The notes under the pieces are model-generated. The model searched no databases and was not told the origin of the DNA. It saw only the letters and a program-made list of their open reading frames with translations. The position numbers were made by a program, and so were the translations under genes. Shown in pieces: positions 1 to 40,996 of a DNA stretch of 50,812 bases. Origin of the DNA: a virus. Location: positions 1-50,812 of IMG/VR virus record IMGVR_UViG_3300035670_000305. One strand, given 5' to 3'. Position 1 is the first letter of the stretch. The number at the start of each line of letters is the position of its first letter.

Positions 1-2
1 AG

Positions 3-287
3 AAGGGCAGCATAGCCGACTTTATGGCCAAGATGGCGCAGGCCGGTGCGACTGCCGCAAGTGCATCTGACGCGCGACTGAAGACCAATGTGGAAAAGGT
101 CGGCGTGTTGCCTGATGGCCTTGGCATTTACGAATGGGATTATCTGCCGATTGAAGGCCAGATTGCCGCATTCATGCCTGAAGGTCGCCAAACCGGCGTG
201 ATGGCGCATGAAGTTGCTGAATTGCGACCGTGGGCGCTTGGCCCGGTCATTGAAGGCTACGCAACCGTCGAATATGGGAGTCTGTAA
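3..287 (+). CDS. S74-type chaperone domain of a virion protein (5' truncated by window)
   Basis: The reading frame is open to the left window edge, so only the C-terminus is present. It aligns with the end of the complete copy at 36284-37135. The stretch starting SDARLKTN, followed by GIYEWDYL and GVMAHEVAEL, matches the pattern of the Peptidase S74 intramolecular chaperone domain. In that family the protein cleaves itself just before the Ser of the SD motif after trimer folding. The domain is short (about 75 residues) compared with classical S74 domains, so cleavage is uncertain. The next gene starts immediately after the stop codon. Confidence 0.7.
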   Translation, partial: KGSIADFMAKMAQAGATAASASDARLKTNVEKVGVLPDGLGIYEWDYLPIEGQIAAFMPEGRQTGVMAHEVAELRPWALGPVIEGYATVEYGSL

Positions 288-929
288 ATGGCACTAGGTT
301 TCCAGCGGCAAGGCATCTTTGGCCGTCGCAATCCTATGGATATGCAGCCTCAATCGCAGGCAATGCCACAGGCTAACGCCATGCCCATAGGCGTCGAACA
401 AATCACCAAGAAGCCGGGCTTTTTCGGCAAGGATAGCGCGCTTTGGAAGGTGTTGGGAACGCTTGGCGATACGTTCAGTGACGGCCCGCCCATCTACACA
501 GAAAGCGTCCTACAGCAGCGCGATGCCGAAGAACGCGCCCGCATGGCGCAGCAGCAGCGTATGCAGAAGCGTGAGGACATGCAATGGGAATGGCAGAACA
601 AGCCGAAAGACGACAGCCCGAAAGACCAACTGACGCGCTTCATGGTTGCGGCAGGCATTGACCCGAACAGCCCCCGCGCTCGTGAATTGTATGCCCGCGC
701 CGTAGAAAACGAAGTCAACCCAATCCAAGCCGTGCCATTTACTGACGCGCAAGGAAATAGCGGGTTCCAGTATGTCCGCCCAAGCCAAATGCAGGGGACG
801 GCAGCGCCGACAAGCAAAGCCGAATATGACGCCTTGCCACCCGGCGCACAATATCGCGCACCAGATGGAAGCATCCGCACCAAAGGAGGCAGTGGCGGTA
901 ACGTCACTGGCGGGTTTCAACGCCCCTGA
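288..929 (+). CDS. Small virion protein with N-terminal GIFGRR motif; overlaps M15 frame
   Basis: A 213-residue protein, homologous to 37136-37765 in copy B. Shared features are the MALGF start, the GIFGRR/GMFGRK motif near residue 9, the AMPIGVEQ motif, a Q/R-rich helix and a glycine-rich end. No enzymatic family is recognised. Its position between the S74 protein and the large ejection-protein candidate suggests a minor or internal virion component (inference). It ends CCC-TGA, 38 nt inside an overlapping +1 frame encoding a peptidase domain. It may therefore also be made as a longer frameshift fusion. Confidence 0.65.
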   Translation: MALGFQRQGIFGRRNPMDMQPQSQAMPQANAMPIGVEQITKKPGFFGKDSALWKVLGTLGDTFSDGPPIYTESVLQQRDAEERARMAQQQRMQKREDMQWEWQNKPKDDSPKDQLTRFMVAAGIDPNSPRARELYARAVENEVNPIQAVPFTDAQGNSGFQYVRPSQMQGTAAPTSKAEYDALPPGAQYRAPDGSIRTKGGSGGNVTGGFQRP

Positions 930-1233
930 TTTCAACCCAATCAACAGCCTTAAAGGTGCAGGCCTAACACCAACAAGCGGCTTCAGGACGCAGGCCCATC
1001 AAGAGGCTCTAATTCGCCAAGGCCTGACCACCACAAGGAACAGCGCCCACACGCGGGGCGATGCCCTAGACTTTGCCGTTCCCCAAGGAATGACAAAGGC
1101 GCAGGCAATTGAAATGGTTAAGCGTCAATATCCCGGCGCTCGTGCAATCCCGTCAAACGGCAACGCAATTCACGTAACCTTCCCCGGATGGGGCAAGGCT
1201 CCCGATGTAAGCAATTCACGCGGAAGGTATTAA
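892..1233 (+). CDS. M15-type (D-Ala-D-Ala carboxypeptidase-like) peptidase domain
   Basis: About 113 residues from a candidate GTG start at 892; the open frame reaches back to 772. The sequence shows TSGFRT, then SAHTRGDALDF, which matches the zinc-binding SxHxxGxAxD pattern, and a later NAIHVTFPGWG segment supplying the third ligand. This family (VanY/M15, also phage endopeptidases) cleaves peptidoglycan peptide stems, which fits local wall digestion during DNA entry. GGAGG lies only 2 nt before the GTG, which is unusually close. Alternatives are a +1 frameshift at CCC-TGA (924-929) from the upstream gene or coupled reinitiation. The same arrangement occurs at 37731-38072. Confidence 0.6.
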   Translation: MAVTSLAGFNAPDFNPINSLKGAGLTPTSGFRTQAHQEALIRQGLTTTRNSAHTRGDALDFAVPQGMTKAQAIEMVKRQYPGARAIPSNGNAIHVTFPGWGKAPDVSNSRGRY

Positions 1234-1236
1234 TAG

Positions 1237-4086
1237 ATGCAAAACTGGTGGGAACAGGATAGCGTAGTTGAGCAAGGCGGCCAGCAGTCGAACACGCTTA
1301 TCACAAAGCGGGCAAACCCTATTGAACAGCAGGGCGCGGCGCTGAAAAACCAGCTAACGCAGGCGCAAATTCAAAAGACGCTTGATGATCTAAATAATGG
1401 CAACGAACCTAAATTGCCAACTGGCTATCGTTGGAAGCCTGACGGCACCGCAGAATTGATACCGGGGGTTGCTGCACCGGGAGCAGGCAATAAAGCAACC
1501 GCTGCACAGCGCACCGAGGCAATCCAAGGCTTTAACGATGCCGTGGCTTTGCGTAACATTGCCAAGCAACTTCGCGAGCGTTTTGAACAAGGGCCTGGTG
1601 CCACACAAGGCATTGCCGCACTTCAGGACTTTTTGCCTACCGCAGCCAATCGTGGCTTTGACACTGCCGCACAGCGCGCTCGCGGTTACGTCAAGCGCAG
1701 CCTTGGATTTACAGGCGGTGAGGGCAACACGGTCGCGGAAAGCACCACGCTTTACGATCCTTATCTGCCTTCAACGTCAGATTATGACAGTTCGATCCTT
1801 GATAAGATTGCGGCCCTTGAAGAACTGGCGGGCTTGGCAGAAGGCAAGGCAGTTGCGGTTCTTGGCGGCCGCCCTGACGCAAGCGGAAATGTTGTTCCTA
1901 TAACGCAGGATCAGGAAGCCCCAATGCTTGCCCCTGCTGGAAACACCCCCCCTGCTCCGCAAGGCCCTGACCGCAGCAATCCATTGCCCACCGGCCCTAG
2001 CTTTGGTGGCCCGCAAGGCGATCCTAGCGGCTTTGTTCCCTATGGCAGCACTACGCGCCGTGTGAACAATCCCGAATGGGCTGGCGTAAACGAAGCCGTC
2101 AAGGGCATGATTATTGCAGGCCAAACGCCTGATCAAATCCGTGCCTATCTCGGTCAGCGCGGCATCAACACCAATGTTGAAGGCTTGAACCAAGCGGCAG
2201 ACTATTTCCGCAAGACTGGCAAGCGTGACTTCCGCGTTAATGTGGATGATATTGAAGTTCCCATGTCGGGCTTTGAGCAATTCCGCAACAACGCCCCGCA
2301 GACTGCCGTAGGCGCAGGATTGACCACGGCGGCTAACGCTGCATCCTTTGGCATCCCGCAGGCGCTTGCACCGGAACAGATGCAATATATCCGCGACCAA
2401 AGCCCTGTTGCTTCCTTTGTGGGCGATGTGGCGGGTATCGTTGGCGCAACGTCAGGTATCGGCGCTGTTGGCAACTCGCTTGCACGCAGCCTTGCACCCC
2501 GCGCTTTGACTGGTGGCGGGCGTTTCGGCAATGCCGTTCGTTCGGTGGCCCCTGATGCGGCTTATGGCGCTGCTTATGGCGGCATTACTGAAGGCGACCC
2601 GCTGACCGGTGCTGCAACCGCTGCCGCTGGTTCTGGCGCTGGCCAGTTGCTTGGTAAGGGCATTCAGAAAGGCTTTCAGGGCGTTTCCGATCCTGCCGTG
2701 CAATATCTGACGGCTCGCGGCGTTCCGTTGTCCCTTGGCGAAACTTTGGGCAATAACAGCATTGTCGGACGCCAGATGCAACGCATGGAAAGCATCCCGA
2801 TTTTGGGTGACTTGATGAGCGCCCGTCGTGGCGAGGCAAGGGATGCAGTTTATCGCGGTGTTTTGGAAGACGCGGTGCAGCCCATCGGCGGCAGAATTGA
2901 CCCCGCAGACCCGCTTGCAAGCGCGCAGCAGGCCATTTCTGGCGCTTATGACAATGCCGTTGGCAATGTTACCGTTCCGTTTGATGCGCAGTATTTTGAC
3001 GAATTAGGCAATGTCCGCAATGCAGCTTCAACGCTTCCGCCCGACCTTAAGGGCAAGTTTGATGCAGCAATGGCAAGCCGTGTTGATCCTTTATTAGACG
3101 GAAACGGGGTGCGAATTTATCACGGCACAACGCCTGAAGCTGCACGTAATATTGAAACAAATGGCTTTGACCTTTCTAAATCAGCAGATGGGTCTGCGTG
3201 GTTTACAATCAACCCCAATATCGGCGAGGTTGCTGCCACTGGTAAAGGCGGGGTTGTCCAGCGAACAATTGACGAAAATCGCTTGAAACTGGGTGGCTGG
3301 AACGAATCAGATAAGTATTCAACTGACCAACTTTTACAACAAGGCTATGATGGGTTGAAATTTGTCGATGACGGGGCCGACACACATTACCAAATTTTCA
3401 ATCCTGAAAAACTAGTTCCAGCTAATCCTTTAATGACTGGTCAGCAATACCAACAGTCCATGCGCGGCCTTAGCGGTTACAAATCTGAAGCAACCAAGCC
3501 TGGATTTGAGCAAGACTATCGCGATGCCATCTCAATGGTTCAGGATGCGCTTAAAGGCCAGATGATGCGCGGTGGTGGCGATACGGTTGTAACCGGCCTT
3601 CGCAATGCAGACCAAGCCTATTCGATGCTCAAGCCGATCCAGAACGCGACAATAAGCGCAAGGGGAACGCCTACGCCAAAGCAGCTTCAAGCGGCATTCA
3701 CCACCAATACGAAGAAATTTGGCGGCGATGCAGCGGCGGCGCGTGGCGATAAAGTGCCTGATATTGTCCGCTATGCGGTGAACAATGCGCCAAACATCGG
3801 CAACAGCGGCACGGCGGATCGTCTTGCTGGAATTATGCCGTTTATCATGCCGACTGCACTTGGTGGCTCTGCTGTGGGCCTTGAAACCTTCACCGATAGC
3901 CCGTTCTTGACGGGTTCGCTTGCTACTTTGGCGGCCCTTTCCACACGAACCGGCCAAAAGGGAATGCAAACGGCGCTAGTTAAGCGGCCCGCCGCCGTCC
4001 GTCGCATCGGTGGCATCTTCGGGCGGCGGGAGACGCAAAAGGGGCTGGCTGGCATGGTAACAGCCCCCTTGCTCATCGAGCAGTAA
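1237..4086 (+). CDS. Large putative DNA-ejection/internal virion protein with inserted ADP-ribosyltransferase-like domain
   Basis: A 949-residue protein related to the 974-residue product at 38072-40996. Both have a central alanine/glycine-rich, membrane-compatible stretch (ATAAAGSGAGQ, around residue 465) and a C-terminal GIFGRR motif. Size, order and the hydrophobic core fit a podovirus ejection protein; this is inference. Residues about 626-730 are absent from copy B and read IYHGTTPEAA, then AWFTINP, then QQGYDGLKF and YQIFNPEKL. That order is typical of ADP-ribosyltransferase-fold domains found in polyvalent phage proteins. The segment (about 3109-3420) is visibly A+T-richer than its flanks, which points to recent acquisition. 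I could not assign the catalytic Glu. Confidence 0.65.
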   Translation: MQNWWEQDSVVEQGGQQSNTLITKRANPIEQQGAALKNQLTQAQIQKTLDDLNNGNEPKLPTGYRWKPDGTAELIPGVAAPGAGNKATAAQRTEAIQGFNDAVALRNIAKQLRERFEQGPGATQGIAALQDFLPTAANRGFDTAAQRARGYVKRSLGFTGGEGNTVAESTTLYDPYLPSTSDYDSSILDKIAALEELAGLAEGKAVAVLGGRPDASGNVVPITQDQEAPMLAPAGNTPPAPQGPDRSNPLPTGPSFGGPQGDPSGFVPYGSTTRRVNNPEWAGVNEAVKGMIIAGQTPDQIRAYLGQRGINTNVEGLNQAADYFRKTGKRDFRVNVDDIEVPMSGFEQFRNNAPQTAVGAGLTTAANAASFGIPQALAPEQMQYIRDQSPVASFVGDVAGIVGATSGIGAVGNSLARSLAPRALTGGGRFGNAVRSVAPDAAYGAAYGGITEGDPLTGAATAAAGSGAGQLLGKGIQKGFQGVSDPAVQYLTARGVPLSLGETLGNNSIVGRQMQRMESIPILGDLMSARRGEARDAVYRGVLEDAVQPIGGRIDPADPLASAQQAISGAYDNAVGNVTVPFDAQYFDELGNVRNAASTLPPDLKGKFDAAMASRVDPLLDGNGVRIYHGTTPEAARNIETNGFDLSKSADGSAWFTINPNIGEVAATGKGGVVQRTIDENRLKLGGWNESDKYSTDQLLQQGYDGLKFVDDGADTHYQIFNPEKLVPANPLMTGQQYQQSMRGLSGYKSEATKPGFEQDYRDAISMVQDALKGQMMRGGGDTVVTGLRNADQAYSMLKPIQNATISARGTPTPKQLQAAFTTNTKKFGGDAAAARGDKVPDIVRYAVNNAPNIGNSGTADRLAGIMPFIMPTALGGSAVGLETFTDSPFLTGSLATLAALSTRTGQKGMQTALVKRPAAVRRIGGIFGRRETQKGLAGMVTAPLLIEQ

Positions 4087-4176
4087 TTTAGCTTTTCGGT
4101 GGTCGCGCCATTCGGCCCATGCGCCCCATGCAACGCCTATCAGGCCCTTTGCAAACATCGCGGCAAATAAATCCAT
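3976..4176 (-). CDS. Small antisense membrane-protein ORF, conserved in copy B
   Basis: A 66-residue ORF antisense to the end of the ejection-protein gene. Its N-terminus (MDLFAAMFAKGLIG) matches the 31-residue ORF at 40955-41050 (MDYFLAFFAKGLIV). Over the codons for FAKGLI all six codons differ between copies only at the third position and keep the amino acid, which suggests selection on this strand. The N-terminus is hydrophobic, a likely membrane segment. The 3' half overlaps the plus-strand gene and is not conserved. No ribosome-binding site is obvious. Function unknown. Confidence 0.45.
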   Translation of the reverse strand: MDLFAAMFAKGLIGVAWGAWAEWRDHRKAKLLLDEQGGCYHASQPLLRLPPPEDATDATDGGGPLN

Positions 4177-4212
4177 AGCCGCTCAATAACACAAAATCGA
4201 AGCAACCCCAAG

Positions 4213-4235
4213 CCCTGCCTTTGGCGGGGTTTTTT
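4213..4235 (+). terminator. Rho-independent terminator before tailspike gene
   Basis: CCCTGCC, loop TTT, GGCGGGG, then six T residues. An equivalent hairpin lies at 41085-41108 in copy B. It sits 17 nt before the tailspike start, so it probably attenuates read-through from the structural genes into the tailspike and lysis genes. Confidence 0.75.
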
Positions 4236-4251
4236 CGTTGAGGAAACGTGA

Positions 4252-5841
4252 ATGCCCATTTCTGATTACAGCACTTCAGCGGCGTCCAACACTTCGCTTG
4301 GCGGCATAGCTGTTGGCGAGAATATGGTTCGCAGCGATGTAAACAACGCCATTCGGCAGCTTATGGCCGACATTGCTGCCTACAAAACCGGCCTTGCCAG
4401 CATGAAAAGCGTGAAAGACCCGCCATATAATGCGGTGGGCGACGGCGTGACTGATGACACATCGGCAATTCAGGCGGCGATTAACGCAAATTCGCGCATT
4501 TTCTTCCCGCGTGGAAACTACAAAGTCAGCCAACTGGTTATCACCGATGCTTTCGGCAAAGAACTGATTGGCGAGGATCAGGAAACCTATATCCAAGGCG
4601 CAACTGCTGGAACGTCAATTATTCAGTTTGGCAAGCCAACTGGCGGCAGCGAAGTTGACCAAACCAAGCGCGCTCAATACTGCAAGGTTGCCAATCTGGC
4701 CATTTATGCAACGGCAGCTTACACTTATGGCATTGACTGCCAATGGCTAACAGACAGCTATTTTGAAAATGTAACGCTTTCTGGTGACTCGTTCATTGAA
4801 ACGGGAATGCGTTATGACTTCTCGTGGAATAACGACTTTTACCACTGCACCATTGCTGCTAAAAACGGCATTACCTTTGGCGCATTAAGCCCGAACCGCA
4901 CCACCTTCTTTGGCTTGCGTCTTGCGGGCGGCGCGCGCGGCGGCGTGGGCTTCAACGGCGCTGGCACGACCATCACGCTTGTTGGTGCTGACATTTCGGC
5001 ATTTGCAACAGGTGTTAAGTTCGACAATGGCGGCTTTGGCTTCTCGATTGTCGGAGGCTACTTTGAAAGCAACGGCGTAGACATTAGCCTTGGTGGCGGT
5101 GGCCTTAGAGGCGCTTCCATCACCAACAGCACCTTTCTTGCTGGAACCGGCTCTAACATCGCCATTCAGCAATCCGGCGCAAGTTCTGTTGAAGGCGTGA
5201 CTATTACCGGCAACGCTTTCCGTGACAAGGCGGATTGTGTCATTCTGACCAGCCTTACCTATGGATGGAACATTACCGGCAATGGCTACACGGGCGTAAC
5301 GCGGTTCATTACCGAGGGCGGATATTATCACAACATAGACGAACTTGACGGGCGTTATCAGCTTTATGCCGGGATGCTTGACTTGTCGGGTGTAACCGGC
5401 ACGAATGGAGGGCAGATCAAGTTTCCTGCATCGCCTAACCTGTCGGCAAATGCTTCCACGCTTGATGCTTATCTGGAAGGAACTTTCACCCCTGTTGTTG
5501 CAGGATCATCAACGGCGGGCGCTGGAACTTATTCAACGCAGGCGGGAACATATACCCGCATTGGTAACAGGGTGTTTTTTGACATCGCGCTGACGTGGTC
5601 GGCCCATACGGGAACAGGCAACTTACTTGTAACCGGCCTGCCTTTCACATCGGCAAACAGCGAGCCGGTGTCTGTTATCACCGCTTATGTTGATGGCATG
5701 ACCATCACGGGGGAAGCCCACTTTATTGTCAACCAAAACGCAACCAATGCACAGGTTCAATCGGTCAACAACGGAACGGCGGCTTCGCTTGCCCTCGATA
5801 CGGCGGCAACCTTGCGCGTTACCGGCAGCTATCGGGTGTGA
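4252..5841 (+). CDS. Tailspike / depolymerase with pectate-lyase-like beta-helix
   Basis: A 529-residue receptor-binding protein. The first 45 residues (MPISDYSTSAASNT to LMADI) match the first 45 of the copy B tail protein at 41125-42489 and are the likely virion anchor. The rest is unrelated. From residue about 56 the pattern YNAVGDGVTDDTSAIQAA, followed by FFPRGNY, is the classic start of the pectate-lyase-like right-handed beta-helix of phage tailspikes that bind and often cleave surface polysaccharide. The C-terminal 130 residues (GTFTPVV onward) resemble trimeric tail-tip domains. The ribosome-binding site GAGGAAACG precedes the ATG. The substrate cannot be told from sequence. Confidence 0.85.
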   Translation: MPISDYSTSAASNTSLGGIAVGENMVRSDVNNAIRQLMADIAAYKTGLASMKSVKDPPYNAVGDGVTDDTSAIQAAINANSRIFFPRGNYKVSQLVITDAFGKELIGEDQETYIQGATAGTSIIQFGKPTGGSEVDQTKRAQYCKVANLAIYATAAYTYGIDCQWLTDSYFENVTLSGDSFIETGMRYDFSWNNDFYHCTIAAKNGITFGALSPNRTTFFGLRLAGGARGGVGFNGAGTTITLVGADISAFATGVKFDNGGFGFSIVGGYFESNGVDISLGGGGLRGASITNSTFLAGTGSNIAIQQSGASSVEGVTITGNAFRDKADCVILTSLTYGWNITGNGYTGVTRFITEGGYYHNIDELDGRYQLYAGMLDLSGVTGTNGGQIKFPASPNLSANASTLDAYLEGTFTPVVAGSSTAGAGTYSTQAGTYTRIGNRVFFDIALTWSAHTGTGNLLVTGLPFTSANSEPVSVITAYVDGMTITGEAHFIVNQNATNAQVQSVNNGTAASLALDTAATLRVTGSYRV

Positions 5842-5843
5842 CC

Positions 5844-6044
5844 ATGAGGCCGCATCACATTCTTGACCATCTGGGCGATGGCGCAAAGCATCTATTGGAC
5901 ACAACTGCGGCATTTGTCGCCTTGGGGGCGCTGGTGAAGTTACTGCCGTCTATTGCTTCATTCCTGACGATTATATGGATGCTGCTCCGAATTTACGACT
6001 GGATAGAAGCCCGATGGCAGGGCCGCACGCCTTCAGGGGATTAG
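5844..6044 (+). CDS. Putative holin (T7 class II-like size and position)
   Basis: A 66-residue protein, very similar to 42489-42689. It has an amphipathic N-terminus (RPHHILDHLGDGAKHLL), a hydrophobic stretch FVALGALVKLL, a second stretch FLTIIWMLLRI and a charged tail. Size and its place directly after the tailspike gene match the T7 gene 17.5 holin. Role (inner-membrane hole formation at lysis) is inferred. The ATG at 5844 is chosen because copy B starts at the same residue; a GTG two codons upstream is possible. Confidence 0.6.
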   Translation: MRPHHILDHLGDGAKHLLDTTAAFVALGALVKLLPSIASFLTIIWMLLRIYDWIEARWQGRTPSGD

Positions 6045-6139
6045 CCTTTGCGGCTGCCGTCCTGATGATGTGGCACCAGCCAAACTTCACGCTTTTTCTG
6101 TTTCTGGCGTTCGTTTTCGGGCGCGCAAGCAAGGGGTAG
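6014..6139 (+). CDS. 41-residue membrane protein overlapping holin gene end
   Basis: ATG at 6014 lies inside the holin-candidate gene in another frame and runs to TAG at 6137-6139. The copy B equivalent (42659-42784) is also exactly 41 residues and very similar: both start MAGP, contain one hydrophobic segment (NFTLFLFLAFVFG) and end GRASKG. The stop lies 2 nt before the metallophosphoesterase ATG, so the genes are probably coupled. It could be a lysis accessory peptide or a second holin component. Confidence 0.65.
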   Translation: MAGPHAFRGLAFAAAVLMMWHQPNFTLFLFLAFVFGRASKG

Positions 6140-6141
6140 TT

Positions 6142-7116
6142 ATGCCTGCCAATGAAAAGGTTACACGCGAACAATTTGCCGCCTTATGGGAACGGCACGG
6201 ATCGGCAAGGATAATTGCCCAACATCTTGGAATTGATATTTCCAATGTCCACCAGCGGCGTCGGCGTATGGAAAAAGAGGGTTACACCTTCGCCACAAGG
6301 CCAGCGCCGGGATATGAAAAGCACACACCGATTTTAGATACTGGCTGGACGTTCCCCCGCGAAATCCAGCACGAAATTCAAGACGGCTGCGTCATTGTTT
6401 CCAGTGACCACCATTATTGGCCTGACATTGTAACCACGGCGCACATTGCCCTGTTGAATGTTTGCAAGGCCCTAAAGCCCAAAGCCAAAATCTTGAACGG
6501 CGATATTTTTGACGGGGTGTCAGTGTCCCGCCACCCGCCTTTCGGTTGGTCTAGGCGTCCATCTGTTCGCGAAGAACTGGAAGCCTGTCAGGAACGGGTT
6601 GCCGAGATTGAAGCGGTATTGCCCAAGGGCTGCCAACGGTTGTGGAGCATCGGCAACCACGACATCCGCTTTGAGCGCGTTCTAGCGCAAAACTCCCCCC
6701 AATATGAAGGGCTGCCGGGATGGCGGCTAGAAGACCATTTCCACGGTTGGAATTTTGCTTGGTCGCATTTGTTCAATGCTGATGGCGTCCACCCTGTGAT
6801 GGTCAAGCACAAGCATGCTGGCGGCGTCCATGCGGGCTATAACAACACCATGAAGGGCGGGGTTACGATTGTAACCGGCCATACGCACCTTTTGGAAGTC
6901 AAGCCTTGGGGTGATTACCGTGGAAGGCGCTACGGCGTCCAGACAGGCACGATCACGGCTCTGGACGGCCCACAGACCGAATATCAGGAAAATGCGCCTC
7001 CTACGGCCTGTCCGGGCTTTGTGGTGCTGACATTCAAAGACGGTGACTTGTTGCCGCCCGAACTTTGCGAGGTTCGCGGTGACAAAGCCTTTTTCAGAAA
7101 TGAGCAGGTGGCATGA
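6142..7116 (+). CDS. Metallophosphoesterase with N-terminal helix-turn-helix
   Basis: 324 residues from the ATG at 6142, preceded by AAGGGG at good spacing; a longer frame from 6070 exists but runs through the 41-residue ORF. The N-terminus (about residues 5-50) looks like a helix-turn-helix (IIAQHLGIDISNVHQRRRR). The catalytic core shows SSDHHYW, LNGDIFDG, SIGNHD and VTGHTH, the D-x-H / GDxxD / GNHD / GHTH metal-ligand series of calcineurin-like phosphoesterases. The substrate is unknown. It lies between holin and endolysin genes. The copy B protein in this slot (42787-44019) is another subfamily with different spacing. Confidence 0.85.
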   Translation: MPANEKVTREQFAALWERHGSARIIAQHLGIDISNVHQRRRRMEKEGYTFATRPAPGYEKHTPILDTGWTFPREIQHEIQDGCVIVSSDHHYWPDIVTTAHIALLNVCKALKPKAKILNGDIFDGVSVSRHPPFGWSRRPSVREELEACQERVAEIEAVLPKGCQRLWSIGNHDIRFERVLAQNSPQYEGLPGWRLEDHFHGWNFAWSHLFNADGVHPVMVKHKHAGGVHAGYNNTMKGGVTIVTGHTHLLEVKPWGDYRGRRYGVQTGTITALDGPQTEYQENAPPTACPGFVVLTFKDGDLLPPELCEVRGDKAFFRNEQVA

Positions 7117-7169
7117 ACGAAGCTGTTTTCTTTTCAAACGTCCGTGCGGGCATCCTAGGGCCTAAGTAA
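7113..7169 (+). pseudogene. Truncated 5' end of a second endolysin allele
   Basis: ATG at 7113 overlaps the stop of the upstream gene. The 18-codon frame reads MNEAVFFSNVRAGILGPK then stops. It parallels VFFSAVRSGLLGPK at residues 7-20 of the intact GH19 gene at 7712 but is diverged in DNA. It looks like the start of another allele, cut off where the HNH gene joins. Confidence 0.7.
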
Positions 7170-7662
7170 CGTGCCGCCAAAGCCGACCAGATTTTATGCG
7201 GCAATAAGTGGATACGGCGATGCCGTATTCTGGTGCGGCAATCGTGCTGCTTCGTTGGTCAGCTTTTATAGCGCGAACAATATCTGGGTTCAATTTTGCG
7301 TTGACGTTCTTTTCGCCAAATTGAACTGTGCCGTGATTAATCGCGTCTGCCGCATTAGATTTTGGGTCGCCCCAATAAAGATTCTCTGGCGTGTTGTTAA
7401 GCGGGTTGCCGTCCTTGTGGCAGGCCATCGCTGTTGGCTCAGGCGGACAACCAATAAACGCTTCGGCAACAAGGCGATGCACCGACGCAGATTTAATCTT
7501 GCCTCCGCTGCAAATAGACACTTGCGCCCTGCCGTTTCGCTTAATGCTTTGAACCAGAACCCGCATCCGTCTTCCGCAACGGTCTGGAGTGGTTCTTTTT
7601 ATCCTCCCGAGATTGGACGCGGAATATTCCGGAGCGCTCGGGATAATTTTCCAAATTTCCAT
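7162..7662 (-). CDS. HNH homing endonuclease (NUMOD4-HNH)
   Basis: A 166-residue protein on the strand opposite to the lysis genes. The N-terminus IWKIIP..YSASNLGRIK is the NUMOD4 DNA-binding motif. VHRLVAEAFIG, then CHKDGNPLNNTPENLYWG, is the HNH_3 nuclease core. The C-terminus (IAAPEYGIAVSTYCRIKSGRLW) is a helix-turn-helix recognition module. Such genes spread by cutting an unoccupied allele. It is inserted between a truncated and an intact endolysin start and is absent from copy B. A TTGACA box (7692-7697, minus strand) lies upstream with only a weak -10, so its own promoter is possible. Confidence 0.9.
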   Translation of the reverse strand: MEIWKIIPSAPEYSASNLGRIKRTTPDRCGRRMRVLVQSIKRNGRAQVSICSGGKIKSASVHRLVAEAFIGCPPEPTAMACHKDGNPLNNTPENLYWGDPKSNAADAINHGTVQFGEKNVNAKLNPDIVRAIKADQRSSTIAAPEYGIAVSTYCRIKSGRLWRHVT

Positions 7663-7670
7663 TCTTGCAA

Positions 7671-7689
7671 CATGACACGAAACGTCATG
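7671..7689. repeat. Inverted repeat CATGAC-N7-GTCATG upstream of HNH gene
   Basis: A perfect 6-bp inverted repeat with a 7-nt spacer lies between the HNH gene start and the endolysin start, next to a minus-strand TTGACA. It may be an operator or part of the insertion boundary. Confidence 0.4.
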
Positions 7690-7711
7690 GATGTCAACGC
7701 TGGGGGTCTAT

Positions 7712-8323
7712 ATGTCATTCAATATTAGCGTATTTTTTTCCGCCGTCCGCAGCGGGCTTTTGGGGCCAAAGCTAGATGAGGGGGAGGTAAATGGCTGTGA
7801 AGCCATACTTGAAGCGATGGCGGGAATGCCAGTCTCTTGGGCCGCGTATGCCCTTGGAACAGCTTACCATGAAACAGCGCACACCATGCAGCCTATTAAG
7901 GAATATGGCGGGCCGAAATATTTTACCCGCATGTATGACATAACCGGCGCGCGGCCCACGATGGCCAAAAAGATGGGCAACACAACGCCAGGGGACGGGC
8001 CGAAATATTGCGGGCGCGGTTACGTCCAGCTTACTTGGCGCGTAAATTATGCCCTTGCCGGTGATAAGCTGCGTGTTGATTTGGTGAACGATCCAGACTT
8101 GGCAATGAATAAAGACATTGCCGCAAGCATCATGCGGGAGGGCATGAAGGCGGGCTGGTTCACTGGCAAGAAACTGGCGGACTATCTGCCAAACGGCACA
8201 GCAACGCTTGCCCAATTCAAAGCGGCGCGCCGGATCATAAATGGCACGGACCGCGCAGAACTTATCGCAAGCTACGCGGTCCAATTTCAGGAAGCACTTG
8301 TTGCAGCGGAGTGGGGCAAATGA
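7712..8323 (+). CDS. Endolysin, glycoside hydrolase family 19
   Basis: 203 residues from ATG 7712, which follows GGGGGT. A longer frame from 7691 exists but lacks similarity to the truncated allele. YHETAHTMQPIKEYG (residues 52-66) holds the candidate catalytic glutamates E54 and E64. GRGYVQLTW is the family 19 signature shared by chitinase-like endolysins that cleave the peptidoglycan sugar backbone. No signal sequence is visible, so it probably needs the holin. In copy B this slot is filled by an unrelated GH108 enzyme. The present start codon lies just downstream of the HNH insertion. Confidence 0.88.
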   Translation: MSFNISVFFSAVRSGLLGPKLDEGEVNGCEAILEAMAGMPVSWAAYALGTAYHETAHTMQPIKEYGGPKYFTRMYDITGARPTMAKKMGNTTPGDGPKYCGRGYVQLTWRVNYALAGDKLRVDLVNDPDLAMNKDIAASIMREGMKAGWFTGKKLADYLPNGTATLAQFKAARRIINGTDRAELIASYAVQFQEALVAAEWGK

Positions 8324-8568
8324 GCGCCGAAATCATCACGCTGTTTGAAACGAACTGCGCCGACATTCCATCAATGCTGCGCGGCACGGCTGACAACATC
8401 GAAGCGGAAACCGATGAGCATGTTCGCACGGAAAGCATCATCTGCGTTCAAATCCATGAAAACGGCGATCTGCAAGTTTACGGATGGGGCCGCACCGATA
8501 CGCACCAGTGCATAGCCAATCTTGAAATTGCCAAGCACCAGCTAATCCAAGGGATTTATGATGTTTGA
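8320..8568 (+). CDS. Conserved 82-residue lysis-cassette protein of unknown function
   Basis: ATGA overlap with the endolysin stop fixes the start at 8320. The copy B counterpart (44522-44770) has the same length and clear similarity (IITL, NCADIPxML, VQIHENGDLQVYGWGRTDT). No family is recognised and no membrane segment is seen. It is retained in both phages although both flanking genes were exchanged. Confidence 0.7.
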   Translation: MSAEIITLFETNCADIPSMLRGTADNIEAETDEHVRTESIICVQIHENGDLQVYGWGRTDTHQCIANLEIAKHQLIQGIYDV

Positions 8569-8824
8569 CCTGACAACACCAGACGGGCGCAGGGCTGCCG
8601 CCTTTGCCGCCATATTGGGTGGCTGTTTTACAATGACCGTCTTTGCAGCCTTTGGCGTGTATATCGTTCGCAAGGACGCTGGCTTGTCGTTCTGGCTGGC
8701 CTTGGCTGCCCATGCTCAAATTACGCTTGGCCTGTCTGCCTTTACCGCTCTCTTTGTGAAGCGGTCTATTTCCGTTGGCAAAGATGGCGTGACCATTGAA
8801 GACAAGCAGAAGGGCGACAAATGA
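8558..8824 (+). CDS. Two-pass membrane protein, candidate holin/antiholin
   Basis: 88 residues with two hydrophobic helices (FAAILGGCFTMTVFAAFGVYI and FWLALAAHAQITLGLSAFTALF) and a charged C-terminus. It overlaps its neighbours at both ends. Position just before the spanins fits a holin or antiholin. Copy B has a non-homologous two-helix protein here (44767-45054). Confidence 0.6.
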   Translation: MMFDLTTPDGRRAAAFAAILGGCFTMTVFAAFGVYIVRKDAGLSFWLALAAHAQITLGLSAFTALFVKRSISVGKDGVTIEDKQKGDK

Positions 8825-9327
8825 TAGCCCTAATCGCAAACTATAAGCGCATCATATACGGCACGGCCTTAGCCCTGCTTGGCACGTTGCTACTGGTGCA
8901 GACAGCCCGGATAGAGGGCTTCCTTTTCTGGGATGGCCTGAAGGCTGAAAACACCGCCCTTCGCGAAACCGTGGCAAGCATCAAAGCGGCACAGGAGCAG
9001 GCAACCAAACTAGCCATTGCCGAAAAGAAGCGCATTGAACAGGACAACGAAAGGAAGGCACAAGATGCCCGCGAACTGGAAAAGAAACTGCGTGTTGACT
9101 ATGACCGCCGCCTTGCTGGCTGGCTGCGCGCACAAGCTGGAAGTAACACCGGCAACGCCAATCTGTCCAAAACCGGCGAAGCCACCAGCGGAATTGATGG
9201 AGAAGGTCGATCTGCCTTCGTTCCTGAAGGATACGTTCTAACGCCTATTCGGGATTTGGAGTTGAGCGCACAGGCTTTTGCGAAGCTAGAGGCTTGGCAG
9301 GCTTGGGGGCGTTCGTTGTCTGAATAA
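8821..9327 (+). CDS. Inner-membrane spanin (Rz-like)
   Basis: 168 residues with one N-terminal membrane segment (IIYGTALALLGTLLLVQTARI) and a long charged coiled coil (about residues 40-95), ending in a C-terminal region about 65% similar to the copy B protein at 45197-45700. Together with the lipoprotein nested in the +1 frame (9065-9241) this is a classic Rz/Rz1 pair that fuses inner and outer membranes in the last lysis step. ATGA overlap with the upstream gene sets the start. Confidence 0.85.
   Translation: MIALIANYKRIIYGTALALLGTLLLVQTARIEGFLFWDGLKAENTALRETVASIKAAQEQATKLAIAEKKRIEQDNERKAQDARELEKKLRVDYDRRLAGWLRAQAGSNTGNANLSKTGEATSGIDGEGRSAFVPEGYVLTPIRDLELSAQAFAKLEAWQAWGRSLSE
9065..9241 (+). 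CDS. Outer-membrane spanin lipoprotein (Rz1-like), nested
   Basis: 58 residues from ATG 9065, preceded by AAGGAAGG and wholly inside the inner-spanin gene in another frame. It has a lipoprotein signal (NWKRNCVLTMTAALLAGC) with lipobox LLAGC and a proline-rich body (PICPKPAKPP), both typical of Rz1. The copy B counterpart at 45441-45623 shares the NWKR start, LAGC lipobox and the KVDLPSFLK end. Confidence 0.85.
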   Translation: MPANWKRNCVLTMTAALLAGCAHKLEVTPATPICPKPAKPPAELMEKVDLPSFLKDTF

Positions 9328-9496
9328 GCAACTCAACAGCAACTTGCACGGGGCCGGGAATGTCACCGGTAAAGTCATCGCTTTCCCATTTGCTGATTGA
9401 TTGCCAGCCCCAATTGCCCATACGCAAAACCTTGGCCATCTCCTTTTGAGAGAGGCCAAGGGCTTTGCGGGCGGTGCGGAAGTCAGCGGGGGTCAT
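9245..9496 (-). CDS. XRE-type helix-turn-helix regulator
   Basis: 83 residues from the MTPADF start at 9496; the frame is open further upstream but shared similarity begins here. FRTARKALGLSQKEMAKVLRMG is a Cro/CI-type helix-turn-helix, followed by PGPVQVAVELL. Its homologue at 48830-49057 is near-identical over the first 26 residues and then diverges. It is the last gene of a short leftward operon and its end overlaps the convergent spanin gene by 83 nt. Target unknown. Confidence 0.75.
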   Translation of the reverse strand: MTPADFRTARKALGLSQKEMAKVLRMGNWGWQSISKWESDDFTGDIPGPVQVAVELLIQTTNAPKPAKPLASQKPVRSTPNPE

Positions 9497-35914: not shown

Positions 35915-36291
35915 CTTTCGGCTATGTCCCGTCACCAGCGGCGGGACAGTGGCAGAAGGCTTTGGGCTATTTGAAGCCAGCCCTCGCACGGGGCGGTTAC
36001 ACTTGGGAAGAATGCGCCAAGCTGATTGATAGCGGACACGCTCAACTATGGATGAGTGATGAGGCTGCGCTGGTTAGCCGCCGCGATGGCGACACATTGG
36101 AGCTTTGGCTTTGTGGTGGGCGCGTTGTGAATGCGTCTGACAAATATCTGGCGGTCATTGAACGGGCCGCAAAAGAATCCGGCATGAAGTGGATGAGAGT
36201 AACGGGCCGCAAGGGATGGGAGCGCCATCTTAAGCGGTTCGGTTGGGTGCGTGTTGGTGAGGATTTGATGAAGGACATTGCAAATGGGTAA
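35911..36291 (+). CDS. T7 gp13-like / acetyltransferase-fold internal protein
   Basis: 126 residues. DKYLAVIERAAKESGMKWMRVTGRKGWERHLKRFGW is present in two parts and resembles small phage proteins with a GNAT-like end that precede the ejection genes. Catalytic residues are not evident. It likely acts in virion assembly; moderate certainty. Confidence 0.6.
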   Translation: MTFGYVPSPAAGQWQKALGYLKPALARGGYTWEECAKLIDSGHAQLWMSDEAALVSRRDGDTLELWLCGGRVVNASDKYLAVIERAAKESGMKWMRVTGRKGWERHLKRFGWVRVGEDLMKDIANG

Positions 36292-37135
36292 GACGAAGAC
36301 TGTTCAAAAGAACGACCCGTGGGCACCAGCCCAGCCATATATCTTGAAGGGGCTTCAACAGTCGGGCGAAGTCTTTGACCAGCAGCAGCCGACGCTTAAC
36401 AAATATTCCGGTATGCAGATGGACACCTATGGCCGCGTTGCGCCTGGGGCCGAAGCTGGAATCATGGGCGCGCAAGGCCTTGTCAATGACACGCTTGCTG
36501 GTCGTTATTTGAACGGCAACCCGTATCTTGACGGAATGCTGAACCGCACCCGCGATAGCGTCTCGGATCGTGTCAACAGCAACTTCTCGCTGGCTGGCCG
36601 TTACGGCTCGGATTACCACACTGGCGAACTAACCCGCCAGCTTGCCGACGCTGAAAACCAGATGCGCTTCCAAAACTACGCAATGGAGCGCGGCTATCAG
36701 AACGACGCTGTAGGCCAAGCCCAGCAGCTTATGGGCGGCAGCCAAGGCCTGCTTAACAATGCCGCTGAATTGCCTTGGATCGGCGTTGGTGCATTGAATG
36801 GCAACGTCCGCAACGCATCGGGGGGTTATGGCACGACCACCACCACGCAAAAGCAGGACATTGGCGGTTTGCTTGCACAGGCAGCAGGCACGGGCCTTGG
36901 CGCTTATGCTGGATCAGATGCGCGCTTGAAAACCAATGTTGAGAAAGTTGGCGAACTGCCTGACGGCCTTGGCATTTACGAATGGGATTATCTGCCGATT
37001 GAAGGCCAGATTGCCGATTACATGCCTGCCGGACGCCAGCGCGGCGTGATGGCTGATGAAGTGGCTGAACTGCGTCCGTGGGCGCTTGGGCCTGTCATCG
37101 AAGGCTATGCAACCGTAAACTATGGAGCGTTGTAA
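36284..37135 (+). CDS. Putative internal virion protein with S74-type C-terminal domain
   Basis: 283 residues from MGKTKTVQ (36284). The first 195 residues (NPYLDGMLNRTRDSVSDRVN, AENQMRFQNYAMERGYQND) are helical, as in ejection or internal virion proteins. A short Gly/Thr linker follows. Residues about 208-283 repeat the S74 pattern SDARLKTN, GIYEWDYL, GVMADEVAEL seen at 3-287. It is the complete counterpart of the gene truncated at the window start. Confidence 0.7.
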   Translation: MGKTKTVQKNDPWAPAQPYILKGLQQSGEVFDQQQPTLNKYSGMQMDTYGRVAPGAEAGIMGAQGLVNDTLAGRYLNGNPYLDGMLNRTRDSVSDRVNSNFSLAGRYGSDYHTGELTRQLADAENQMRFQNYAMERGYQNDAVGQAQQLMGGSQGLLNNAAELPWIGVGALNGNVRNASGGYGTTTTTQKQDIGGLLAQAAGTGLGAYAGSDARLKTNVEKVGELPDGLGIYEWDYLPIEGQIADYMPAGRQRGVMADEVAELRPWALGPVIEGYATVNYGAL

Positions 37136-37765
37136 ATGGCACTAGGCTTCCGAACTGGCGGCATGTTTGGCCGCAAGCCATCATACGAACGCCAGCCTTG
37201 GGACACCCCTGGCATTGGCGACGGCTTCAATCAGCGCATGGCTGAAATGGGCGATGTCAATCCTTCTGCAATGCCCATTGGTGTTGAGCAGATGACCCAA
37301 AAGCAAAGCTTTTTTCAGCGACCCGGCGTGAAAACGGCTGCGGGTATTTTGGGTGACACGTTACTAACGCTTGGCGGCGGTAAACCCATGTATGCGCCCA
37401 TGATGCACGAACGGCGGATGCAGGAAGAAGATGCACGCTTACGTCAACAACTTGCCCAGCAGCAGCGTATGCAGGCGCGTGAAGACTTGCGCTGGAAATG
37501 GGCCAATGAGCCGAAGGATAACAAGCCCGATCAGCTTACTGAATGGATGATAAGCGCAGGAATTGACCCAAGAAGCGAACAAGGCCGCGATGTGTATCGC
37601 AAGGCAGTGGAAAACAAAGTCAATCCACCCGTCTGGCGACAAGGGCCTGATGGTAATTTTTACCGTGTGGATACTCCGCAGGGCGGCTTGCCGACCTTTA
37701 CTGATGACGACTGGAACAAGGCGGGAGGCAGTGGCGGCAACGTCACTGGCGGGTTTCGGCGCTGA
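37136..37765 (+). CDS. Small virion protein with N-terminal GMFGRK motif (copy B)
   Basis: 209 residues, counterpart of 288-929. It shares MALGF, GMFGRK, AMPIGVEQ, the QQQRMQAREDLRWKW helix and the glycine-rich GGSGGNVTGGF end. Its TGA lies at the same relative place as in copy A, but the preceding codon is CGC rather than CCC. No family recognised. Confidence 0.65.
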   Translation: MALGFRTGGMFGRKPSYERQPWDTPGIGDGFNQRMAEMGDVNPSAMPIGVEQMTQKQSFFQRPGVKTAAGILGDTLLTLGGGKPMYAPMMHERRMQEEDARLRQQLAQQQRMQAREDLRWKWANEPKDNKPDQLTEWMISAGIDPRSEQGRDVYRKAVENKVNPPVWRQGPDGNFYRVDTPQGGLPTFTDDDWNKAGGSGGNVTGGFRR

Positions 37766-38072
37766 CTTTAACCCAATCCCCGCGCTTCAAAAAGCAGGCT
37801 TTACGCCAACAAGTGGCTTTAGGACTGAAAAGCACCAAGCGGCACTTTTTGCGCAAGGTTTAACGCCAACAAAAGGCGGGGCGCATGTTCGCGGCGACGG
37901 TTTGGATTTTGCCGTCCCGCAAGGAATGTCCAAGGACGCAGCAATCGAAATGGTCAAGCGCCAATACCCTGGCGCAAAAGTCATCAAGTCCAATGGCAAC
38001 GCAATTCACATCACTTTCCCCGGATGGGGCAAGGCTCCTGATATAAGCAATTCTCGCGGAAGGTATCGCTAA
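37731..38072 (+). CDS. M15-type peptidase domain (copy B)
   Basis: 113 residues from GTG 37731, exactly the length of the copy A domain from its GTG. TSGFRTEKHQ, GAHVRGDGLDF and NAIHITFPGWG give the H/D/H zinc site (the first Ser of the motif is Gly here). GGGAGG precedes the GTG by 2 nt, as in copy A. The overlap DNA is almost identical between copies. The stop overlaps the next ATG (TAATG). Confidence 0.6.
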   Translation: MAATSLAGFGADFNPIPALQKAGFTPTSGFRTEKHQAALFAQGLTPTKGGAHVRGDGLDFAVPQGMSKDAAIEMVKRQYPGAKVIKSNGNAIHITFPGWGKAPDISNSRGRYR

Positions 38073-40996
38073 TGGCCGAACGTCGCATTATTAATGGTTA
38101 CATTGTTGAGCGCCAAGCTGATGGGCGGCTTGTGACTATCGGCCCCGCAAATGGCCCTGCGCCGCAAATGCCTGCTAATCCGACTTTCCCCTATGAAGGG
38201 CCAAAGGCGCAAGCAGACTTGACCGGCAAGTCTTTGGATAATCAAATCACGCAAGCAACTTTGCCCGCCGCTATTGCCAAGGCGCAGGCTGACGCTCGTA
38301 AGGCTGAGGCGGATGCTGCCGTTGCTGAGGCAGCGGCGCAAGAGCAAAAGAACAAAACTAACAAAAAGCAATCGGCAAATGCAAATCGTGCGGAGCAGAT
38401 TAAGGGGCTGCTAAAAGTAATCAAGGATGCGCGCGCAAAGGCTGATGACTTTCTTGCAGTTGGCAAGTTTTCAGGCAATGCCGCCGAATACCCTGTAGTC
38501 GGCAACTTTTTGGGCCAAAATCGCGCAACCCTTGAAGGGTTAACCGATTCAATCATGGGCGACTTGATCCAGCAGCAAGTTGCAAAGATGGCAGAAGTCA
38601 ATCAGGGCGGCGTTTCCAGTTTGGCAAGCACTCCCGAAGAAGCGCGCCGTATGGCGGCCTCAATTGCAAATCTTTCCCTTGACCAAGATTTGCCAACATT
38701 CTTGAACGGTTTGCAGCGCGCCGAAGATTACTATAAGCGCCTTGGCGCTGAAGCAGGCTTAAGCCAACAGGAAATTTCGTTGGCGCTCGGCAAAAAGTCC
38801 GAAGCACTAGAAGCGCGTATGCCTGAAATGACTGGCGGCTTGCCGACTGGCACTGATATTCAGTTTAACTACGCCAAGCCAGATGGCGGATTTGACCGCG
38901 CAGCATGGCTGCAAGCAAATTTCGGAATTAACCCCGATCAGGAGGCCAAAATAACCGCATTTATGCGGGCCAATCGCGGCAATCCTAACTTCACCTATGA
39001 CAACCTTCGCAACTTTTACCAGTCTGTTGGCGCACCTCCGCCAGAGCGCAATGACGCAACAATTGAAGCAATCCGCCAAGGAAATGCCAACGTCACCGGC
39101 TACGATAGTTCCCTTGCCGAGCAGCTTTACAACATGGCGCTGGAAAAGCGCGTTGCCGAACGCGACACTACTGGCGGGGCCATTGATACCGTAGGACGCA
39201 CTGCCGCAAATGCCTTCTTTGGCCTTGGCGACCGCGCTGCCGCCATATTCGGGCCAGATGACTACGCAACCAACCTTGCGGCGCAGCGTTTTGAAACGGA
39301 TGCGGCCCGCCAAGCCAATCCAATTGCAGCATTTGGTGGCGACGTTGCTGGCCTGCTTGCAGGAACTTACACAACGGGTGCACTTGCTCAAAATGCCGCA
39401 TTGCGCTTTGCCCCTAACTGGGCGCGGCAAGGGGCTTGGGGTAGCAGCATCCCGCGCAACCTTGCCAACGACACAATCTATGCAACCACCTTGGCGCTTG
39501 CGAACGATCAAAACCCTTACACGGCGGGTGCAACTGCACTTGCGGGTAGTGGAGCGGGGCAAGTTCTTGGCGCGCCACTAGGCAAGGCAACTGCAAACGC
39601 TATTCAGTCATCACCTCGCGCCATGAGCCTTGTTAACGCAATCCCTGGCATGGGTGGCGGGCGTGCAACGCTGCCCAAACTGTCAACGGCTGACCGCCTT
39701 ATGGTCGAGGCCGTTGGGGATCGTGGGCCGCAAGTGCTGGGTAATCTGCAAAACGCAGCGCAATTGGGTATTCCGATGTCTCTTGCGGACGCCGACCAAG
39801 GCTTAACTGCGCTTGGCGGGGCTGTAGTGCGCCGTTCGCCAGAGGCGCGCAAGATTGCAGCCGATGCCTTTGAGCCCCGCGCTATGGGTCAATATGACCG
39901 TTTTGTGGGCGCTGTTGAGCGCGACTTTGGCCCCGTGGCCAATATTCCGCAACGCAGCGAAGATTTGTTGCAGCAAGCCCGCACACAATCCCGCCCGCTT
40001 TATCAGCCCCTTGAACAAATGCCTCCGCGCACCTCGCCTGCATTGGATGAAATGCTCAATACAAATGCAGGGCAAACCGCCATGCGAAATGCAACGCAAA
40101 TTGCGGACGCACAGCGCGCACCGGCAGGCTCATTGACCATTGGAACCGACGTTGCAGGCAATCCGATTTTTACCGCAACGCCAAACTTCCAAACGCTCAA
40201 TTATGTCAAGCAGGGCTTTGACCGCTCTTATGAAACCTTGAAGCGTGCTGGCGATCCTCTGGCCAGTTCAATTAATGGATTACGCAAAGATTACGTTTCC
40301 GAAATGGATAGGCTTTATCCGGGCTATGATGCTGCCCGTGCCGCTTATGCTGGCCCGATAGCCGAGCGCGAAGTGTTCCAGCAGGGCGTTGACGCTCGTA
40401 AAATGACGCCGGATGCAATGGGATTTGCGCTTAAAAATATGCCGCCTGCTCGCGTGGAGCAATTCCGCTTGGGCCGCATTTCTGACATGGTTGACCAAGC
40501 TGGAAAGGTTCGCTTTGAAGGCAACCCCTGGACTAATGTTGTGGGTTCACCCGCCGAACAGCAGCGCCTATCCATGCTGTTCCCTGAGCAGTCGCAAAAC
40601 TTCATCCGCCAATATCAATTAGAGCGCGATTTGGCCAAGTCACAAAACCAAATCCTTGGCGGAAGTCCGACTGCGGAGCGCATGCTGCAAGACCAAGCCT
40701 TCCAAGGCAATATTGCAAGCGATCTGGCGTTTGATGCTGTGACAACAGGCGCGCCACTAAAAAGCAGCGTTAATGTGCTTGGGCGCTTTAGCAAAGATGA
40801 ATTGGGCCGCATCGGCGCGGAAAAGAAGGCTAACGAACTTGCCCCAATTATCTTTGATACCGACGCAGCAATGGCTGCCGAACTGTTTCGCAAGGCAAAG
40901 AAAGCCAAAAAGGCTCGCGGCATATTTGGGCGGCGCGGTGCGCCCGCTGGGGCTTCAGTTGTTTCTGCGCCGATTATGGCGAGTGGCAATGAATGA
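38072..40996 (+). CDS. Large putative DNA-ejection protein (copy B)
   Basis: 974 residues. The N-terminus includes an A/K-rich coiled coil (AKAQADARKAEADAAVAEAA). The middle has a membrane-compatible A/G-rich stretch (YTAGATALAGSGAGQ) similar to copy A. The C-terminus ends KARGIFGRRGAPAG, matching GIFGRR in copy A. The ADP-ribosyltransferase-like segment of copy A is absent. Probably injected with DNA to form the trans-envelope channel; inference. Confidence 0.65.
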   Translation: MAERRIINGYIVERQADGRLVTIGPANGPAPQMPANPTFPYEGPKAQADLTGKSLDNQITQATLPAAIAKAQADARKAEADAAVAEAAAQEQKNKTNKKQSANANRAEQIKGLLKVIKDARAKADDFLAVGKFSGNAAEYPVVGNFLGQNRATLEGLTDSIMGDLIQQQVAKMAEVNQGGVSSLASTPEEARRMAASIANLSLDQDLPTFLNGLQRAEDYYKRLGAEAGLSQQEISLALGKKSEALEARMPEMTGGLPTGTDIQFNYAKPDGGFDRAAWLQANFGINPDQEAKITAFMRANRGNPNFTYDNLRNFYQSVGAPPPERNDATIEAIRQGNANVTGYDSSLAEQLYNMALEKRVAERDTTGGAIDTVGRTAANAFFGLGDRAAAIFGPDDYATNLAAQRFETDAARQANPIAAFGGDVAGLLAGTYTTGALAQNAALRFAPNWARQGAWGSSIPRNLANDTIYATTLALANDQNPYTAGATALAGSGAGQVLGAPLGKATANAIQSSPRAMSLVNAIPGMGGGRATLPKLSTADRLMVEAVGDRGPQVLGNLQNAAQLGIPMSLADADQGLTALGGAVVRRSPEARKIAADAFEPRAMGQYDRFVGAVERDFGPVANIPQRSEDLLQQARTQSRPLYQPLEQMPPRTSPALDEMLNTNAGQTAMRNATQIADAQRAPAGSLTIGTDVAGNPIFTATPNFQTLNYVKQGFDRSYETLKRAGDPLASSINGLRKDYVSEMDRLYPGYDAARAAYAGPIAEREVFQQGVDARKMTPDAMGFALKNMPPARVEQFRLGRISDMVDQAGKVRFEGNPWTNVVGSPAEQQRLSMLFPEQSQNFIRQYQLERDLAKSQNQILGGSPTAERMLQDQAFQGNIASDLAFDAVTTGAPLKSSVNVLGRFSKDELGRIGAEKKANELAPIIFDTDAAMAAELFRKAKKAKKARGIFGRRGAPAGASVVSAPIMASGNE

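Follow-up and report, generated by a model that had tools for sequence, protein, structure and literature searches.

Several described recoding and initiation systems share parts with the signal reported here. In the prfB gene for release factor 2 (RF2), the sequence SD-UAU-CUU-UGA, in which SD is an internal Shine-Dalgarno sequence, provokes a +1 slip of the P-site tRNA on the bacterial 70S ribosome; 3 nt separate the SD from the shift codon, and the UGA is obligatory. According to PMC5009743, a spacing of about 3 nt between an internal SD and the shift codon is required for +1 shifts, CCC-UGA and CCC-UAA are proven +1 sites (see also PMC6316719), and a rhizobial integrative and conjugative element (ICE) shifts +1 at UUU. 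In a prfB context, UUU is reported to be one of the codons most prone to a +1 slip (PMC10885494). The extension of phage structural proteins by +1 frameshifting is already known: in Listeria phage PSA and in SPP1 (gp17.1*), a fraction of such a protein is extended C-terminally by a shift near the stop. In T4 genes 38 and 25, an intervening hairpin shortens the SD-AUG distance from 22 to 5 and from 27 to 11 nt, respectively (PMC3014915), and an engineered stable hairpin beside CUUUGA stimulated +1 frameshifting on 70S ribosomes with approximately 60% of the SD effect (PMC6321510). Here, we analyzed a stretch of 50,812 bases from an IMG/VR virus record (IMGVR_UViG_3300035670_000305; termed the window, numbering as in that record), in which two genes for a putative P22-type DNA-ejection protein (copies A and B) each overlap a +1 frame encoding an M15-type peptidase domain. 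Judged from sequence comparison, a programmed +1 frameshift on tRNA-Phe (UUU to UUC), for which SD and hairpin would act together as a split stimulatory cassette, very probably adds the muralytic domain to part of the ejection protein.

The ejection-protein reading (frame 0) ends in ...GGF QRP TGA in copy A and in ...GGF RR TGA in copy B, and the peptidase frame is open in +1 from 706 to 1233 and from 37554 to 38072, respectively. This arrangement had been proposed in a first-pass annotation made from the DNA alone, and its coordinates were confirmed, as was the near-invariance of the overlap DNA between the two copies. In the mRNA of copy A, the order of elements is GGAGG-CAGUGGCG-GUAA-CGUCACUG-GCGGG-UUU-C.

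Relatives were gathered by protein search with the window peptidase and then with its alignment, which yielded 63 distinct junctions. In 62 of these, the domain is encoded in +1 relative to the upstream gene; the exception is the locus L007 (-1). TTT followed by C or T was found in every +1 junction (TTT at 915-917 and 37754-37756 in the window), within a conserved order of GGA GGY, eight or nine codons, TTT, and C or T. GGAGG was kept in nearly all 63 junctions, in agreement with the earlier proposal that it belongs to a frameshift signal. SD variants were seen as GGGGG (codons GGG GGT) at L019:4991-4995 and as AGGAG in L284. The stop of the upstream gene shifts among relatives, from 0 to 10 codons past TTT, and the sequence preceding it is constant. 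Joint conservation of TGA, GGAGG, and GTG had been suggested as a check; GGAGG was indeed retained, but the stop moves and the GTG is mostly absent.

Among 49 aligned frame-0 proteins with a mean column identity of 16%, invariance was limited to the columns of Met1, of the two Gly residues specified by GGAGG, and of the Phe specified by TTT. At other Gly-Gly pairs of the frame-0 genes, GGA comes first in 19 of 330 cases, and this rarity indicates that the constraint on GGAGG acts at the RNA level. Furthermore, the +1 reading showed a ratio of non-synonymous to synonymous substitution rates (dN/dS) of 0.05-0.15 and is thus under purifying selection. Iterative search with hidden Markov models united the frame-0 proteins of 110 of all 116 junctions in one family.

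The first-pass annotation had placed the slip of copy A at CCC-TGA, as in PSA or SPP1, where this type of site is proven. CCC-TGA was not conserved, however: no CCC precedes the stop in copy B and in nearly all relatives, and in several relatives the stop directly follows TTT. A slip at CCC is therefore highly improbable. The two sites predict different junctions in copy A, namely ...GGFNAPDFNP with a slip at UUU and ...GGFQRPDFNP with a slip at CCC; the predicted fusion peptide across the junction is GGSGGNVTGGFNAPDFNPINSLK. Other routes to the +1 frame were rejected as well. Transcriptional slippage was discarded since the junction has no long homopolymer run (only TTTC or TTTT), stop readthrough since the domain is in the wrong frame, and a model based on a rare codon alone since the codon 3' of TTT varies (CAA, CGC, CGG, CAG, CCN, or stops).

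A stem of 8 bp, which the first-pass annotation had overlooked, adjoins GGAGG and fills most of the distance to TTT; its loop has 4, 5, or 8 nt, and TTT follows 4 or 5 nt past the stem. Across 15 distinct stems, 95.8% of the cells were paired and both-sided changes occurred at seven of the eight pairs. The covariation score was 1.086, compared to 0.319 +/- 0.050 for shuffled alignments and at most 0.324 for slid registers. All loci together contain 37 distinct arm pairs, and spacer and loop lengths were (4,5), (5,4), or (4,8) in 114 of the 116. A covariance model run across the window matched copies A and B only (E ~7e-5; next best 1.3). Given these two matches, the dN/dS values and the 62 of 63 junctions, the +1 arrangement is far beyond chance. 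The junctions combine an overlapping +1 open reading frame lacking a conserved start of its own, a conserved shift-prone codon and a conserved putative stimulator, GGAGG plus the covarying hairpin; frameshifting as the most likely route to the domain, already favored by the first-pass annotation, is well supported.

In the unfolded sequence, 25 or 28 nt separate the end of GGAGG from TTT, so that there is no SD at the prfB-type spacing of about 3 nt on the 5' side of the shift codon. With the hairpin folded out (20-24 nt removed), 4-6 nt remain. The earlier idea of GGAGG as an internal stimulator thus holds in so far as GGAGG is part of the signal; it would be beyond prfB-like reach unless the hairpin folds the spacer out. 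As a sub-case of the frameshift, the hairpin alone could stimulate, as a duplex against the E site, with GGAGG only encoding Gly-Gly or slowing the ribosome. The engineered hairpin with over half of the SD effect (PMC6321510) speaks for this possibility, as does the hairpin-UUU distance, held at 4-5 nt with few exceptions among the 116 loci. Against it, almost every junction found by protein search retains GGAGG at the nucleotide level and adjoining the stem, although GGA seldom begins other Gly-Gly pairs; we regard it as rather unlikely.

Compared to the described systems, the cassette resembles prfB in its internal SD, the +1 slip of the P-site tRNA and the bacterial 70S ribosome. It differs in the hairpin placed between SD and shift codon, in UUU-Y as the slip site, in the usually sense codon that follows, and in its purpose, the addition of a C-terminal domain. 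With PSA and SPP1 it would share the outcome, whereas these phages use a Pro codon before the stop (CCC-UGA, CCC-UAA), an SD-hairpin cassette is not described for them, and their extensions are not wall hydrolases. Similarly, T4 genes 38 and 25 have a hairpin that separates the SD from the decoding site and turns a spacing of 22-27 nt into a functional one of 5-11 nt, but it serves initiation at AUG, whereas the cassette would serve frameshifting in elongation. In the constructs of Huang, Cho and Chang (2018), a duplex 5' of the shift site also stimulates +1 on the 70S ribosome; these hairpins are artificial and their effect was seen only without RF2, whereas the cassette is natural, conserved, and combined with an SD. 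The likeness to the rhizobial ICE lies in the +1 shift at UUU and in the alphaproteobacterial mobile element; the passage on this element in PMC5009743 notes conserved upstream Trp-Gly codons and does not mention an SD-hairpin.

The T4 precedent also bears on a rival explanation, in which translation of the lytic domain would start anew within the overlap, from GTG 892 or a different codon, and give a protein of its own, with GGAGG as ribosome-binding site and possibly with a split site like that of T4 gene 25. GGAGG is a good SD, GTG 892 has a counterpart in copy B (37731), both copies give 113 residues when read from it, and the SD-hairpin-AUG order is in use in T4 genes 25 and 38 (PMC3014915); moreover, L006 has an ATG about 11 nt past GGAGG. 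The GTG is, however, only 2 nt from GGAGG, as noted before, and it lies within the 5' arm of the stem, which is why both copies share it: it is common only to loci with the stem CAGTGGCG, is missing from most relatives and is not conserved as had been supposed. The claim that there is no normal ATG needs qualification, as the +1 frame of copy A contains ATGs at 772, 826, and 865; none of these is conserved, and this part of the frame does not resemble a peptidase. In at least 17 loci, no ATG, GTG, or TTG is present in the +1 frame between the preceding stop and 12 codons past TTT. At the distance past the hairpin where a start of the T4 gene 25 type would be expected, the codon is always UUU or UUC, with no conserved start. 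Separate initiation also leaves the invariant zero-frame Phe codon unexplained and is opposed by the in-frame fusions described below. We regard it as very unlikely.

The signal occurs with other domains. Two DNA-only signal patterns were scanned over 2.9 million viral contigs, and the first pattern with a stem requirement gave 43 distinct places (hand count). Except for L125, L155, and L178, which lack a continuation into a domain, and L162, which is cut off, the +1 frame at each of these places encodes a wall-lytic or related domain, among them some that are non-homologous to the window peptidase. Specifically, SLT transglycosylases (PF01464, E down to 1.6e-17), M15_3 types (E 1e-5 to 6e-8), and a TSGYRGP/HWHVV type, akin to the domain of the cyanophage Pam1 and without a Pfam assignment of its own, were found behind the signal. 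Furthermore, L118, L176, L181, and L183 encode an 'NNPGALR' domain of about 108 residues with no Pfam match; its distant relatives are within a Bordetella phage tail tape measure protein, and it is a candidate for an unnamed wall-active domain.

Because these loci were selected by the signal, relatives of the SLT and M15c domains were also gathered by protein alone. SLT was in +1 in 11 of 13 distinct cases; five of these junctions satisfied the strict signal rule, and folding revealed another stem length or a weaker SD in the other six. M15c was in +1 in 27 of 30 cases, all with the signal. The remaining two SLT and three M15c cases were in frame, all without the signal, and in them the domain sits on a different, larger protein. 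Bacterial genomes were scanned with the patterns, because the RNA model, when applied to whole genomes, did not recover the known prophage site owing to its candidate limit. Across 399 genomes from the order of the prophage host, the sole proper element was the known Pelagerythrobacter prophage (L114), and the second pattern gave no match in 385 genomes of the host's class. A match in Competibacteraceae (L115) was rejected as chance similarity.

Isolated phages served as natural controls. Gene 41 of Sphingopyxis phage VSN-002 (390 residues) is annotated as 'DNA/protein translocase of phage P22 injectosome'; its N-terminal 265 residues are homologous to the frame-0 family (E 2.7e-14), and an M15c domain is fused to them in frame, with the signal absent. 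An in-frame homologue had been named in the first-pass annotation as a finding that would speak against its proposal. Such a homologue exists, but, lacking the signal, it favors a fusion product over two separate proteins and is in line with the proposal that a fusion would join a wall-degrading domain to a virion (DNA-ejection) protein. Pseudanabaena phage Pam1 (L264, ON014753.1, locus 7175-8282) carries the signal GGAGG-U-CAGGCGG-CUCCC-CCGCCUG-CUGGC-UUUU and a +1 domain after gp14, annotated only as the truncated hypothetical gp15. The annotation thus probably splits a gp14 +1 fusion into gp14 and gp15; the predicted tryptic peptides are GGQAAPPPAGFR for the fusion and GGQAAPPPAGFSDWL for the terminated product. 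Mass spectrometry of the Pam1 structural proteins has been published. In Pan3, the frame-0 protein is present with no such domain. That the Pam1 annotators called only a truncated hypothetical protein, and that the sources are metagenome contigs, might suggest a decayed remnant or a sequencing error as the source of the +1 reading. The identical frame in dozens of independent contigs and in two isolated or cultured sources (Pam1 and the Pelagerythrobacter prophage), the dN/dS values and the conservation refute this, and its probability is negligible.

Some observations weigh against a frameshift that delivers an active wall hydrolase. When the sequences were recoded synonymously, a stem of at least 7 bp arose in 8% on average and a stem with GGRGG in 2.4%, although this null is generous, the amino acids themselves being moulded by the stem. 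A single hairpin is hence weak evidence, and the weight rests on the many independent stems. The effective SD spacing after folding, 4-6 nt, differs from the 3 nt of prfB. In L007 (4950-5315), the domain is in -1 behind C_CCT_TTC, a canonical -1 heptamer; GGAGG is kept and the long stem is absent. Frame and slippery-site type seem to have changed together in this single case, for which a sequencing error is possible. As for the domain itself, Pfam Peptidase_M15_3 (PF08291) matched copy A with 23.8 bits (cut-off 23.2) and copy B weakly with 13.7 bits. The H-x6-D ... H pattern is kept, with H52, D59, and H93 invariant in 22 sequences; we take these residues to be the zinc ligands. M15 enzymes usually have an acidic residue (Asp or Glu) three positions before the last His. 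The domains of the window type (892-1233 and 37731-38072) lack it and have Asn, an Asn in a Ser/Ala context, or Gly there, which renders their catalytic activity uncertain; they may be altered or inactive. Asp is kept at this position by other M15 types behind the same signal (e.g., in L132), and the M15b type has GDHVH with Asp. The predicted fold of the window-type (M15a) domain (predicted local distance difference test, pLDDT, 78) had no confident match in the PDB.

The features of the two copies are listed in Table 1.

Table 1. Coordinates of the two putative frameshift loci and their neighboring genes in the window
Feature	Position	Strand	Remarks
gp7-like DNA ejection protein, 3' end of gene	24..287	+	PHROG 6121/4287
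Copy A frame-0 gene, putative P22-type ejection protein	288..929	+	213 aa at TGA 927-929; 210 aa to shift codon
Copy A GGAGG, internal Shine-Dalgarno-like	885..889	+	codons GGA GGC
Copy A hairpin	890..909	+	arms 890-897 CAGTGGCG and 902-909 CGTCACTG; loop GTAA 898-901; folding -15.5 kcal/mol
Copy A putative shift site TTT-C	915..918	+	5 nt past hairpin; UUU in P site would re-pair +1 to UUC
Copy A +1-frame M15-like peptidase domain	916..1233	+	104 residues past shift codon; predicted fusion 314 aa; dN/dS 0.08-0.13
Large gene (949 aa), P22 gene 16 position	1237..4086	+	named from position and size; no family match
gp7-like ejection protein	36278..37135	+	C-terminal S74-type chaperone domain
Copy B frame-0 gene, putative ejection protein	37136..37765	+	209 aa terminated; 207 aa to shift codon
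Copy B GGAGG	37724..37728	+	
Copy B hairpin	37729..37748	+	CAGTGGCG-GCAA-CGTCACTG
Copy B putative shift site TTT-C	37754..37757	+	TTT = 37754-37756
Copy B +1-frame M15-like domain	37755..38072	+	predicted fusion 311 aa
974-aa gene, P22 gene 16 position	38072..40996	+	PHROG 5880

A portal (PHROG 1216), a scaffold, and a terminase in the window indicate a tailed phage. The gene order corresponds to the ejection genes 7-20-16 of P22, as annotated in the isolated relatives VSN-002, Pam1, and Pan3. From this order and the homology to the annotated injectosome translocase, the frame-0 gene appears to be a P22-type ejection protein in the gp20 position, with gp16 assigned by position; the same order and annotation point to a location of the frame-0 protein in the virion. 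Direct searches of the frame-0 proteins against Pfam and PHROG gave no match to gp20, the 49 aligned proteins had no consistent match in these databases, and a predicted frame-0 structure (predicted template modelling score, pTM, 0.35) revealed no confident structural relatives. The window contains two related P22-like virion gene sets (1-9900 and 24000-46000), approximately 37 kb apart, which probably represent tandem prophages or a joined assembly. An integrase (9998-11002, minus strand) and a RecE-like exonuclease (13621-14301) were also present.

In the proposed mechanism, a ribosome near the end of the ejection-protein gene would reach UUU with tRNA-Phe in the P site. The hairpin would refold, stacked on or aided by the pairing of GGAGG with the anti-SD, and by folding out 20-24 nt would turn a useless SD spacing of 25-28 nt into an effective one of 4-6 nt. 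The duplex would strain the mRNA, and peptidyl-tRNA-Phe would leave UUU and re-pair one base further on with UUC (or UUU), to which it is fully cognate, after which +1 translation would run through the peptidoglycan-degrading domain. Non-slipping ribosomes would terminate 0 to 10 codons downstream. The output would be a presumed majority of plain ejection protein and a minority to which a Gly-rich linker attaches the muralytic domain. This minority would aid the passage of the injectosome through the cell wall.

No earlier description of an SD-hairpin-UUUY signal with interchangeable wall-lytic domains was found in the open-licence papers searched, and a literature search for frameshifts in phage ejection proteins or virion hydrolases returned nothing relevant. 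On balance, we favor the broader view that SD, refolding hairpin, and UUU-Y form a portable recoding cassette, general in P22-like podoviruses, which joins interchangeable wall-lytic domains to a minority of the ejection protein; its split SD would act on the +1 slip of elongating ribosomes, and it would be the equivalent in nature of the upstream hairpins engineered to stimulate +1 shifts. In the open-licence papers searched, stimulation of +1 shifts by mRNA structure 5' of the site is known mainly from engineered constructs. The present signal occurs in nature, is conserved, covaries strongly, and has a fixed geometry, which makes the mechanism, by hairpin alone or by hairpin-shortened SD, directly testable. 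The search rule (GGAGG, 8-bp stem, 4-5 nt, UUU-Y) serves to find predicted fusions that are annotated as a shortened gene and a truncated 'hypothetical' one, as in Pam1. Behind one RNA signal, at least two enzyme families are exchanged in a modular manner, and the cassette offers an explanation of how these phages could adjust the amount of wall-cutting enzyme that enters their injection apparatus.
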